64,000 nucleotides of DNA from a virus: positions 62,001 to 126,000 of the IMG/VR virus record IMGVR_UViG_3300022921_000002; one strand, given 5' to 3'. The position numbers and the translations under genes are program-made. Under the pieces are notes generated by a model. That model was given only the letters and a program-made list of their open reading frames with translations, ran no database searches and was not told the origin of the DNA. This document shows positions 41,067 through 44,228 of the stretch, piece after piece. Position 1 is the stretch's first letter; each line of letters begins with the position of its first letter.

Positions 41067-41438
41067 ATGGCTTATGTCAACGCCTTTGGAGTGGAGATGA
41101 AAACTATGGCAAAGAAAGAAATAACAGTTGATGCTGAAGCAGCAGCTGCACTCGACACAAATAATGACGGTCATATCTCGGCAGAAGAGCTGAGTATGGA
41201 GTTGGAATTTAAACGCAAGCGCCTTGAAGATCAAGATGCTCAACGAGATGCAATGCGTAAAATGACTTGGTTTGCATTGTTTGGAATGTTATTGTACCCA
41301 GTAGGTATTGCTATAACATCATGGTTAGGATTAGATGAAGCATCAGGATTAATTGGAGATATTGCACCGACATATTTTGTTGCAATTTCTGCACTTGTTT
41401 CTGTTTTCTTTGGTGCTAACGCATACAGTAGTAAGTAA
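41067..41438 (+). CDS. EF-hand membrane protein
   Basis: A 123-residue protein with one canonical EF-hand loop (DTNNDGHISAEE, calcium ligands at positions 1, 3, 5, 9 and 12) at about residues 30-41, then two membrane helices (WFALFGMLLYPVGIAITSWL; YFVAISALVSVFFGANAY). The RBS AGGAGC supports ATG 41067. A calcium-responsive holin or adhesion protein is possible. It is alone between a late promoter and a hairpin. Confidence 0.7.
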   Translation: MAYVNAFGVEMKTMAKKEITVDAEAAAALDTNNDGHISAEELSMELEFKRKRLEDQDAQRDAMRKMTWFALFGMLLYPVGIAITSWLGLDEASGLIGDIAPTYFVAISALVSVFFGANAYSSK

Positions 41439-41444
41439 AACAAA

Positions 41445-41476
41445 AATAGGGAGGCTAACTTAATAACCTCCCTATT
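41445..41476 (-). terminator. Rho-independent terminator of the tRNA transcript
   Basis: A perfect 10-bp stem (AATAGGGAGG / CCTCCCTATT) with a 12-base loop. On the minus strand it is followed by TTTTTGTTTT, so it ends the RNA started at 42284. On the plus strand there is no U-tract, although it lies directly behind the EF-hand gene. Confidence 0.85.
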
Positions 41477-41567
41477 ACTCGGGTCTTGTATGTGGACTTC
41501 GGGCTGTGTGTTACACCTCTCCCAGGCTGTCCCTACCTATCTGGTTTTCACGTCACCAGAATTCCTT
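41477..41567 (-). other. Structured spacer between tRNA-Pro and the terminator
   Basis: No gene is seen in 91 bases. The minus strand holds a TCTGG...CCAGA stem around TGACGTGAAAA and a GTGTAACACAC hairpin. It may be part of a tRNA processing tail or a small RNA. Confidence 0.35.
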
Positions 41568-41634
<67 letters not shown>

Positions 41635-41644
<10 letters not shown>

Positions 41645-41802
41645 TTTCTTGTTATAAGATCAAGAACAATGCTCAACTCATATATTGATTTATCTAAAAC
41701 TAAATGAGCAGTTTTATCATCATTCTTTTTCTTTTCTTCGCGAAGAAACTCTAACCTTACCTTTATATAGTTTTCTGCTTCAGGTTTGTTTCCTCTACGC
41801 AT
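41635..41802 (-). CDS. Small charged protein between two tRNAs (55 aa)
   Basis: ATG 41802, seven bases after AAAGGAT. The product is charged and helical (VRLEFLREEKKKNDDK then LDKSIYELSIVLDLI). Its last 10 bases overlap the 5' end of tRNA-Pro, so tRNA processing should destroy the message. No family recognised. Confidence 0.5.
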
Positions 41803-41819
41803 AATATATCCTTTTTATT

Positions 41820-41893
41820 TGGCAAGGGTGGTAGGAATCGAACCCACACCAACGGGTTTGGAATCCGTTGTACTGCCATTATACTACACCCTA
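41820..41893 (-). tRNA. tRNA-Trp (anticodon CCA)
   Basis: 74 bases including the encoded CCA. Anticodon loop TTCCAAA within ACGGA/CCCGT (one A-C mismatch at the base next to the loop), T-arm GTGGG/CCTAC, acceptor AGGGTG/CACCCT with an imperfect first pair. Discriminator G, as in Trp tRNAs. The non-ideal pairs suggest some decay or phage-specific drift. Confidence 0.85.
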
Positions 41894-41901
41894 TCAAACT
41901 C

Positions 41902-42277
41902 CTTAATACTGAATAGTAGTCTTAACTTAGTCCCTCACCAGGATTTTACGGGTTCGGTTGCTAGCACCTACCTACCTGTTACGTTTCTTTGCTCGTACTA
42001 TGCAGTATTAAGAAGTTTTCGTGGGAGGGACTTTCTGCAGTGCCCCTCCCCTTATTTGCATTTTACGTATGCAACAACCGACTGGGTTTTTTTACGGTAC
42101 CAGTTCTTTTTACCGACCTATATGTCCGACGCGCCTCGAACCACATATAGGGTTTGCTTGGGTACGTTCGACGTGATTGTCAGGCTTTCCCCGTGTGCCT
42201 AATAAAGAATGAGTTCGTTACCGTCATGCTTTTTTACCCGAAGGTGATAGCGTCGTGGCCTATTCCTCATTCCTTAT
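41902..42277 (-). ncRNA. Structured non-coding RNA candidate upstream of tRNA-Trp
   Basis: About 375 bases without a credible gene, transcribed from the promoter at 42284-42312. Visible minus-strand structure: 10-bp repeat 41902-41911/42003-42012; 8-bp repeat 41929-41936/42025-42032 interleaved with it (a pseudoknot or a switch); 9-bp repeat 42117-42125/42143-42151; a stem 42081-42085/42100-42104 whose loop CGGT can pair with ACCG at 42077-42080; a UUCG hairpin at 42236-42245; and a closing pair 42207-42213/42266-42272. A permuted tmRNA is one hypothesis (marine myophages encode such RNAs near tRNAs) but I could not find a convincing tag frame or acceptor arm. Confidence 0.5.
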
Positions 42278-42283
42278 ATAAAC

Positions 42284-42312
42284 AATATAACTGATTCTAT
42301 AGTAAATGTCAA
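42284..42312 (-). promoter_or_regulatory. Sigma70-like early promoter for the tRNA/ncRNA unit
   Basis: Minus strand TTGACA, 17-base spacer with ATAGAATCAGT, TATATT. It is the only promoter seen for the ncRNA-tRNA-Trp-55aa-tRNA-Pro transcript. Confidence 0.85.
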
Positions 42313-42315
42313 TAG

Positions 42316-43026
42316 TTATTTGAAGTTTTTTTGTTTCCAAAACATTTTTTTGTACCGATCTACCCACATTGTTGCTAGTTTATTAACAAACTTTTTATGT
42401 GCGGATTGGTCTATATGATGTTGTTCAGATTTCCATGATTCTCTTTTAAAAGGAATAACTTGTACAAGTGGTGTTCCTTTTTTAATTATAACAGGTCGAC
42501 CTGTAAAGTTTCTAAAAAAGAATGGCAAGTTAACTTGATTGTTTTTATACTCATCGGTATCAACAATTGCTGTTTGGAAATAAACACCACTTAATTGTAA
42601 CGTAGGATCATTTAACATTGGTGTAAATAAACAACTATAACCTGGTGGTGTTTCAATTATAAAATGTTGATTGTATTTGAGTACCATTGCAGGTTCAGTG
42701 AAATACGGATGGCCGTTAACTTGATTAGTATTGTGGTCGGTAATTAAATTTTCCAAACCGTCATTTGACCATGAGGCTTCCCATTTGGGTTTATCATTTT
42801 CAATAGAACCGACAAGCATAAGATCACAGTGTGCAGTAATGGTATAACCTGCAGTCATTGCGTCAAGAAACGGAATACATTTTTTGACGGACCCAATTTG
42901 TACTCCTTCTATAACAGGAGATATCTTTTTAAACCAACTTGGTATTGTTTTGACTGCAGGTTTCGGATATTCACTTGCATCGGATAAAAACTCATCAACT
43001 GAAAATTTAATCCGTTTATCTTTCAT
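42316..43026 (-). CDS. Conserved protein of DUF6065 type, unknown
   Basis: A 236-residue soluble protein. The IPSWFKKISPVIEGVQIG block and KKCIPFLDAMTAGYTI block match the DUF6065 pattern known from marine phages, with a beta-rich centre (PPGYSCLFTPMLNDP) resembling a cupin. Function unknown. It lies 4 bases behind the tRNA promoter and 13 bases after the nuclease gene. Confidence 0.65.
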   Translation of the reverse strand: MKDKRIKFSVDEFLSDASEYPKPAVKTIPSWFKKISPVIEGVQIGSVKKCIPFLDAMTAGYTITAHCDLMLVGSIENDKPKWEASWSNDGLENLITDHNTNQVNGHPYFTEPAMVLKYNQHFIIETPPGYSCLFTPMLNDPTLQLSGVYFQTAIVDTDEYKNNQVNLPFFFRNFTGRPVIIKKGTPLVQVIPFKRESWKSEQHHIDQSAHKKFVNKLATMWVDRYKKMFWKQKNFK

Positions 43027-43039
43027 AATATAATATCCT

Positions 43040-43504
43040 TTATTTTTTCATTTTAGCGGCTGCTTTATCAACTTCCTCTTGTGATACAACACCTTCAGAT
43101 AACAGACGTGCTCGGTTTGTGTTATGAGCTGCTTGTGTGTCATCTTTTGATCCACCTGTATATGGTACAGCATGACCTTCACTAATCATAATAGCAGTTA
43201 CCATACGACCATCTTCAGCAATAAAATCACCGAGGATACGACCAAACTTACCCTTCATATCTTCACCGTCTTTTGCAGCAAATGTTTTAAGTGTAGTTGT
43301 TTTGCCAAGGATGCCTTTTAGTCTATTCTTTGCGGCTAATCCAAATACCTTTTCAACCTTATCGGATGTGCGTGACTCAGGAGTATCAATACCCATAATA
43401 CGTACTCGCTCATCTTTCATCCAAATACCAAATCCTAGATCAATGTCTACATCCACTGTATCACCGTCCACGATTTTAGTTACGTGTGCTTTATATTCAT
43501 ACAT
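43040..43504 (-). CDS. Thermonuclease (SNase-like)
   Basis: A 154-residue protein with a staphylococcal-nuclease core: VDGDTVDVDIDLGFGIWMKD, RIMGIDTPESR (catalytic Arg/Glu region), and KGKFGRILGDF (second Arg). No signal peptide, so it works inside the cell, perhaps on host DNA or RNA. Flanked by small early genes. Confidence 0.85.
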   Translation of the reverse strand: MYEYKAHVTKIVDGDTVDVDIDLGFGIWMKDERVRIMGIDTPESRTSDKVEKVFGLAAKNRLKGILGKTTTLKTFAAKDGEDMKGKFGRILGDFIAEDGRMVTAIMISEGHAVPYTGGSKDDTQAAHNTNRARLLSEGVVSQEEVDKAAAKMKK

Positions 43505-43563
43505 TCTTTGATTCCTTTTATGATTTAAGAGCTCAAAGAATTATAATATAAGTTGCTCAGGTA

Positions 43564-43872
43564 TTATTTATTAAGTTCAAACCGTTCTTCGACGTGCTCA
43601 ATACAAGCAGCAATGATATGGCCGATAGTCGGTTCACTATCAATCCATAATCTAACCGCATAGTTATCAATATCAACGTCAGGAAAGAACTTCTCCTCAG
43701 CTGCCATGATGAAATATAGTACACCCATAGAATCCATAATATCATCAAGTGCTGATTCTAAAGTAATGTCATCACGTCTGTAGTCATCTTTCAAGTATTC
43801 AAGTGCCCAATCATACATTTGTTCAAGAGGTGGGCCGCCATATTTTGTAACCATATCCAATTCCTTATTCAT
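43564..43872 (-). CDS. Small acidic helical protein, unknown
   Basis: A 102-residue acidic protein (MYDWALEYLKDDYRRDDITL, SMGVLYFIMAAEEKF) driven directly by the promoter at 43881-43909. No domain recognised. Could be an early host-takeover protein. Confidence 0.5.
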   Translation of the reverse strand: MNKELDMVTKYGGPPLEQMYDWALEYLKDDYRRDDITLESALDDIMDSMGVLYFIMAAEEKFFPDVDIDNYAVRLWIDSEPTIGHIIAACIEHVEERFELNK

Positions 43873-43880
43873 CTGTATCT

Positions 43881-43909
43881 ACTATATCAAACTTTATTTA
43901 CTTTGTCAA
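43881..43909 (-). promoter_or_regulatory. Sigma70-like early promoter
   Basis: Minus strand TTGACA, 17-base spacer, TATAGT. It lies 12 bases from the plus-strand late promoter at 43922-43929, so early (-) and late (+) transcription diverge here. Confidence 0.75.
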
Positions 43910-43921
43910 CAACTTTTGCCT

Positions 43922-43929
43922 TATAAATA
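43922..43929 (+). promoter_or_regulatory. T4-type late promoter (TATAAATA) for the curli/lysis block
   Basis: Exact late box about 20 bases before the RBS (GAGGAG) of the first holin-like gene. No other promoter is seen before the end of the plus-strand block at 51.3 kb, so it probably controls all of it. Confidence 0.8.
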
Positions 43930-43949
43930 ACCGTAGAGGAGTATTAATT

Positions 43950-44228
43950 ATGGATTTTTTAACGCTTGTTGGTGATGTAGGTTTCCCTATTGCTGGTGCC
44001 CTAGCTGCCGGTGTATTTGTATTTATCACACTTAAGTTTATCCTTGCAAGCGTTACTGACACTGTAAATTCCCTCAAAAATATTATGACGGGTTTGGACA
44101 ACCGAGTTCAGACTATGAATAACGATTTAGTGAAAATTGATGCCCTTTTAAGTTATGCTCTAAATGTTAAACCAAACATTGACCGCATAGCTGCAAATGA
44201 AGGCAAGGATGATGCAAGGAGAGATTAA
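43950..44228 (+). CDS. Holin-like (BhlA-type) membrane protein
   Basis: A 92-residue protein: one membrane helix at about 12-34 (FPIAGALAAGVFVFITLKFI) and a long heptad C-terminal helix (TGLDNRVQTMNNDLVKIDAL). This one-helix-plus-coiled-coil layout is that of BhlA/UviB holins. RBS GGAGTATTAATT. It is paralogous to the 126-residue gene at 44588. First gene of the late plus-strand block. Confidence 0.65.
   Translation: MDFLTLVGDVGFPIAGALAAGVFVFITLKFILASVTDTVNSLKNIMTGLDNRVQTMNNDLVKIDALLSYALNVKPNIDRIAANEGKDDARRD

Follow-up and report, generated by a model that had tools for sequence, protein, structure and literature searches.

Relation to described RNAs

The pRNA of phage phi29 is present as one RNA per phage genome and can oligomerise through loops that each pair with a different loop. 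In the dimerisation site of HIV-1, the hairpin loop carries a palindrome flanked by purines, and several palindromes are tolerated. GOLLD and ROOL are nanocage RNAs of phages and prophages (PMC12286853), and the gene 32 mRNA of phage T4 has a pseudoknot in its 5' leader that represses translation (PMC535899). Earlier screens are also on record (e.g., PMC2864571, PMC2704228).

We analyzed a 64 kb window (the whole stretch of DNA under study, taken from the 221,447-base record of a large marine phage) that carries a structured RNA gene comparable to each of these systems. Like GOLLD and ROOL, the RNA is phage-borne, structured, contains pseudoknots and lies in a tRNA neighborhood; kissing loops are intermolecular in those RNAs (PMC12286853) and are predicted to be so here. 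The RNA described here is also much shorter, uses a separate design of self-complementary loops and is additionally found behind protein genes such as gp32. The Rfam models of GOLLD and ROOL matched neither the region (to E = 10) nor 33 related loci at the gathering threshold. A hairpin loop with a 6-nt palindrome is shared with the HIV-1 dimerisation initiation site and other palindromic kissing loops (PMC5874298, PMC4588261); in contrast to the HIV-1 site, this is a cellular phage RNA with no retroviral genome involved, and its dimer is a prediction. The combination of an H-type pseudoknot with an mRNA for the gp32 ssDNA-binding protein recalls the T4 gene 32 operator (PMC535899), but the element described here is 3' of gp32 where the two are linked, and most copies are elsewhere. 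As with phi29 pRNA, there is one RNA per phage genome that may oligomerise via loops; unlike in pRNA, each loop would pair with itself, and no link to packaging genes was seen. The Rfam model of phi29 pRNA had no match in the window or in the local region.

A structured RNA gene between a promoter and tRNA-Trp

An initial annotation made from the sequence alone had placed a structured RNA between a promoter and tRNA-Trp on the minus strand. Reading of the sequence, comparison of its fold with shuffles and covariation all bear this out, and the gene spans about 380 nt (41896-42277, minus strand), with the promoter upstream and tRNA-Trp downstream. In the direction of transcription, the minus strand holds the promoter, ~380 nt without a credible gene, tRNA-Trp, a 55-aa ORF, tRNA-Pro, a small structured stretch and a terminator. 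From its 5' end, the RNA itself has two pseudoknots (M1 and M3) with a hairpin between them (M2), then two further hairpins (M4 and M5) and, in some copies, a domain named M6; its core is only about 150-200 nt long. The features in the window are as follows.

42284..42312, minus strand: sigma-70-type promoter, TTGACA-17-TATATT, agreeing with the consensus at 11 of 12 positions
42207..42273, minus strand: M0, a 5' domain closed by the inverted repeat GGAAUGAG/CUCAUUC and holding a UUCG hairpin (42235-42246)
42160..42200, minus strand: M1, an H-type pseudoknot with stems AGGC/GCCU and GGG/CCC and a GAC/GUC hairpin in the third loop, supported by covariation
42117..42151, minus strand: M2, an exchangeable hairpin, CCUAUAUGU...ACAUAUAGG, very variable in sequence and recognized from cassette swaps
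42081..42115, minus strand: M3, an H-type pseudoknot with stem 1 CGGUA/UACCG and stem 2 ACUGG/CCAGU, supported by covariation of stem 2
42056..42074, minus strand: M4, hairpin UUGCAU-ACGUAAA-AUGCAA, with two-sided changes in 5 of 6 pairs
42023..42050, minus strand: M5, a G+C-rich hairpin with the loop CUGCAG within 42031-42042 and two-sided changes at 10 of 10 stem pairs
41896..42018, minus strand: M6, a long-helix domain, AAACUUCUUAAUACUG...CAGUAUUAAGGAGUUU, that ends just before tRNA-Trp and recurs in relatives
41820..41893, minus strand: tRNA-Trp (CCA), the next gene on the transcript of the RNA, found by ARAGORN and Rfam
41476-41445, minus strand: intrinsic terminator that closes the operon after the second small structured stretch

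From the position of the promoter, transcription of the RNA is expected to start near 42277. A regional scan found two promoter-type sites, with 2.5 expected by chance; because this count is about that of chance, the promoter call is based on the position and quality of the site. The 397-nt strand was more stable than 100 of 100 dinucleotide shuffles (folding energy, z = -2.8). For the full length this is by itself a modest result and not decisive, and we consider the RNA gene real because its core covaries strongly and is conserved at the RNA level. Chance cannot explain this conservation.

The initial annotation had also reported inverted repeats, two of them interleaved, and a UUCG hairpin. 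The repeats are present, and the interleaved CGGU..CUGG..ACCG..CCAG (42081-42115, minus strand) is the true pseudoknot M3, whose stem 2 covaries. A pairing of ACCG with the second CGGU of M3 was disfavored, as the divergent CCGG lineage has lost that CGGU. While the UUCG hairpin exists in the window, comparison lends no support to the M0 domain around it: the only M0 homologues found were near-identical copies from the same phage, none of them independent, and 42211-42277, which is most of M0, folded alone no better than shuffles. The region was further said to contain no credible ORF, and in agreement with this, stop codons occur in all six frames across the homologues, whose lengths do not stay constant modulo 3. 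A plus-strand ORF of 138 aa and an Arg/Lys-rich minus-strand ORF of 27 aa (MWFEARRT..) over M2-M4 were both rejected, since relatives have a different M2 and the frames are interrupted in homologues.

Several neighbors of the RNA gene have features of their own. A relative of the 55-aa ORF between tRNA-Trp and tRNA-Pro (41635-41802, minus strand) lies immediately downstream of the RNA in L087, and similar short ORFs are found in L090 and L095. A 236-aa neighbor (42316-43026, minus strand) belongs to phrog_7084, of unknown function, and its sole relatives in the annotated phage collection are in haloarchaeal tailed viruses (~30% identity). The stretch from tRNA-Pro to the terminator (41436-41567, minus strand) has a fold that beats 200 of 200 shuffles (z -3.9), and it contains CUGGUGACGUGAAAACCAG, a hairpin motif common to large structured domains in L161, L092 and L096.

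Distribution of the RNA family

Rfam 15 matched only tRNAs in the window, and a cmscan of the local region with tmRNA models included and E up to 10 returned nothing convincing apart from the tRNAs. The RNA family was also unmatched at the gathering threshold in 33 related loci. We scanned IMG/VR with an exact 21-mer and then with looser gapped patterns from the core, and complemented these pattern scans with an nhmmer profile and the covariance model R1. Together, the searches placed the core on about 100 viral contigs by our own count. The sole true case in a scan of bacterial genomes was one Rhodobacteraceae metagenome-assembled genome (MAG) with four copies on four contigs, and the other 294 genomes searched in the family of this MAG had zero copies; the contigs concerned are probably phage or phage-derived. 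BLAST searches of the core against 50,697 phage records and 72,556 plasmids gave only chance matches of 19-24 nt.

Every other record searched had a single convincing copy, although one per genome is a lower bound because most records are fragments. A second R1 match in the window (41441-41518, 15.7 bits) is weak, overlaps the terminator region of the operon and was not counted as another copy. Weak matches in L140, L145, L160 and L167 and 12-bit matches in G315 and G316 were not accepted either. Searches of open-access articles brought up no description of the family, and an earlier one in subscription papers or preprints is possible. We are nearly certain that the RNA is a genuine and structured one of phages and that Rfam has no curated entry for it. 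Of the identities first suggested, that of an undescribed phage RNA is the one that agrees with an Rfam-negative, covarying family on phage contigs. The result is an RNA family absent from Rfam 15, spread over ~100 contigs of uncultivated phages, with a fold supported by covariation.

Covariation of the helices

In a first alignment (n = 39), 97.9% of cells paired and two-sided changes occurred at 14 pairs. Alignment A4, which has 59 distinct sequences and includes divergent members added by the model, retained pairing in 95.7% of cells. It held 200 two-sided cells (48 ± 8 in shuffles; 0 of 500 shuffles reached the observed value), and pairing fell to 34-47% when the partners were slid. Because A4 was fitted to the helices of the model, stem 2 of M3, which lies outside the model, is the fair test. 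Here UA changed to CG in 11 sequences, GC to AU in 6 and AU to GC in 9, giving 26 two-sided cells versus 5.8. M1 covaries across 16 relatives, with one stem as AGGC/GCCU, GGGC/GCCC or GAGC/GCUC and the other as GGG/CCC or GAG/CUC. In stem 1 of M3 the inner pairs do not vary, so covariation speaks neither for nor against them; the outer C-G pair of this stem is broken in 12 of the 59 sequences. As far as comparison shows, the RNA is under selection at the RNA level and contains two pseudoknots. Both an absence of covariation and a conserved coding gene had been named as findings that would speak against a structured RNA, and examination for each found covarying helices and no conserved gene.

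Exchange of modules among relatives

The RNA has a modular build. M1 is absent from part of the family and is present by itself upstream of a terminator in L202. The M2 of the window is identical in L086 and L087 and differs by one base in L085, while M1, M4-M5 and the flanks differ; unrelated hairpins substitute for M2 in L119, L090, L094 and L100. Between L087 and L119, M4-M5 and the 120 nt downstream are identical and M2 is unrelated (52%), and the pairs L086/L094 and L085/L100 have a similar pattern of M2 swapping.

M6, whose closing helix is 20-23 bp long, occurs in more than one setting. The window version recurs nearly unchanged in L099, L112 and L121, where the gene context is different. 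M6 versions of unrelated sequence gave helix scores of 20-23, compared with at most 14 in shuffles, and their helix begins right after M5 and ends at the next tRNA or near the start of the next gene. In two of the MAG contigs (L179 and L180), tRNA-Trp comes next after M6, which is also the order in the window.

Self-complementary loops

In all 59 distinct sequences, the M5 loop has in the same place an apical self-complementary hexamer kept through compensating changes, the pattern by which a kissing loop is recognized. Three hexamers occur (CUGCAG, n = 38; CCUAGG, n = 19; CUCGAG, n = 2), with two-sided changes at two of the three position pairs and mostly A..AAA as flanks. For comparison, 19 of 177 loops of stable hairpins in stretches from the same phages contain any 6-nt palindrome, and several of the 19 are M5 itself. 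Because related sequences count repeatedly, independent changes of the M5 palindrome may number just two to four. The two inner bases of the hexamer are adjacent and cannot pair within one molecule, so a partner is needed, either another molecule of the RNA or a symmetric protein. Palindromes differing by type are also found in the M2 loop (CCCGUACGGG, CCUGUACAGG, CCUUAAGG, AGGGCCCU and CUGCAG; combined p ~0.001), while the two commonest M2 types, including that of the window, have only 4-nt palindromes.

The M5 palindrome suggests kissing homodimers, in which two RNA molecules would pair via their M5 loops, and a further self-pairing contact, this one exchangeable, may come from the M2 loop. 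A palindrome could also be favored by a symmetric protein or by selection at the DNA level.

Placement at transcript 3' ends and possible function

Where the upstream neighbor could be identified, it shares the strand of the RNA element and ends a short way before it. These neighbors are tRNA-Arg, -Met or -Pro, a gp32-like ssDNA-binding protein (phrog_224) or small ORFs. At gp32, the element begins at or near the stop codon and a convergent gene comes next, an arrangement like that of an mRNA 3' end. Most gp32-linked copies have UUUU after M5, which gives M5 in these copies the form of an intrinsic terminator (G+C stem and U-run); M5 of the window instead continues into M6. Many copies of M5 have no U-run, and some elements precede a co-directional gene. 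Among 80 gp32 loci fetched separately, the element is present in six, immediately after gp32 in two and ~345 nt past the stop codon in four; of the other gp32 loci, L202 has M1 alone with a terminator, and L207, L224 and L255 have a different conserved structured RNA. Most copies of the element, including that of the window, are not adjacent to gp32.

Cassette exchange, placement at 3' ends, a self-complementary M5 loop and one copy per phage contig are all shown by comparison of the relatives. We think it most plausible that this is a stable phage RNA, either at a 3' end or free-standing, that would associate with itself; this function is our inference. To judge from its position, the compact knotted structure may stabilize or bound abundant phage transcripts (gp32 mRNA and tRNA precursors). 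Given the length of the M6 helix, RNase III could cut it before the tRNA or next gene and so free the RNA. Because the RNA of the window has its own promoter, it probably accumulates free, made together with tRNA-Trp. The whole combination, a modular non-coding RNA family that forms kissing homodimers, is cut at M6 and protects or bounds transcripts, is one we hold tentatively, as having a little short of an even chance. A more far-reaching proposal is a new class of phage RNA that would recognize its own kind through exchangeable self-complementary loops, with specificity swapped by M2 cassettes and with ties to the transcripts of tRNAs and the ssDNA-binding protein, and this we consider doubtful. 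Direct and cheap predictions follow from the exchange of M2 cassettes and from the palindromic loop that covaries. The family also opens to test whether self-association between RNAs, as in GOLLD and ROOL, is more widespread among phage RNAs.

The placement right behind stop codons and tRNAs would also suit a purely cis-acting 3' element, a terminator combined with an exonuclease block or processing signal, in which the M5 palindrome would be the site of a symmetric protein. That relatives have other structured RNAs or plain terminators behind gp32, and that L202 has M1 alone before a terminator, is in keeping with such an element. However, by itself it leaves unexplained the compensating self-complementary hexamers in 59 of 59 sequences, as well as the single copy per genome and the dedicated promoter in the window, and we judge it rather improbable.

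If both M2 and M5 self-pair, each molecule would have two contacts, enough for chains or closed rings, and a trans-acting phage RNA might build a larger particle made only of RNA, similar to those of GOLLD and ROOL. Palindromes in two loops, the promoter in the window, one copy per contig and the tRNA neighborhood and phage origin shared with GOLLD and ROOL (PMC12286853) all fit this scenario. Yet the core is merely about 150-200 nt, the element resembles an mRNA 3' end at gp32, and M1 and the strongly palindromic form of M2 are each absent from part of the family; we judge such a particle unlikely.

The self-associating 3'-end or stand-alone RNA remains our preferred reading. Exchange of M2 cassettes and confinement of the family to phage-type contigs might instead reflect swapping of parts in an arms race, with the RNA as a decoy or inhibitor of a host RNA-binding defense or regulator (e.g., a mimic of a pseudoknot antitoxin). 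Against this, M3-M5 are very conserved rather than diversified and Rfam gave no matching host RNA, and we consider it highly improbable.

Excluded identities and additional observations

A tmRNA, riboswitch, protein gene or replication origin, ideas that trace to the initial annotation or to a GC-skew minimum in the same 2-kb bin, is jointly barely credible, given a tmRNA located elsewhere, no riboswitch model match or constant downstream gene, broken reading frames and the lack of a skew minimum at the element in each of eight further phage contigs. The plus-strand TTCGACGTGATTG, which had been likened to a tmRNA 5' domain, lies opposite the variable M1 hairpin as its complement and is not preserved in relatives. 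No tmRNA or alpha-tmRNA model matched the region, and the true tmRNA of this phage lies elsewhere in the genome (L273:16768-17076, record ~142,768-143,076). It is of the permuted alpha-proteobacterial type with the tag ANDNYKPSGFALAA, and similar tmRNAs are present in L124, L125 and L127. The suggestion of a riboswitch-controlled RNA is disfavored as well, because the element is mostly a 3' element and not the 5' leader of a constant gene type; the downstream genes vary and are sometimes convergent.

Across the 221-kb record, cumulative GC skew reaches a global minimum in the bin of the RNA (104,001-106,000; window ~42,000-44,000) and its maximum at ~206 kb. The minimum is possibly an origin or a strand switch.

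Two further kinds of structured RNA were seen in related loci. One, CCAAC..GGCCUAGUCGCUGARUAAG..UCGGACAAAAGUUGG, occurs near intrinsic terminators at L207:2424, L215:2934, L224:935 and L255:2413 (plus strand); it is directly behind gp32 in L207, L224 and L255 and further downstream in L215, and it was Rfam-negative in L207, L215 and L255. The other comprises large modular domains (L161:6370-6560, L096:480-760, L094:7150-7320, L109:9900-10100, L124:1-180 and L086:10020-10150) that had no Rfam match. They are built from blocks such as CCGCCCGUGAAAU.., GCGGCAAYGUCAAUAAGGCCGUGCGG.. and GGGRACCGGRCCURAA.., and several of them lie just before tRNA-Pro.
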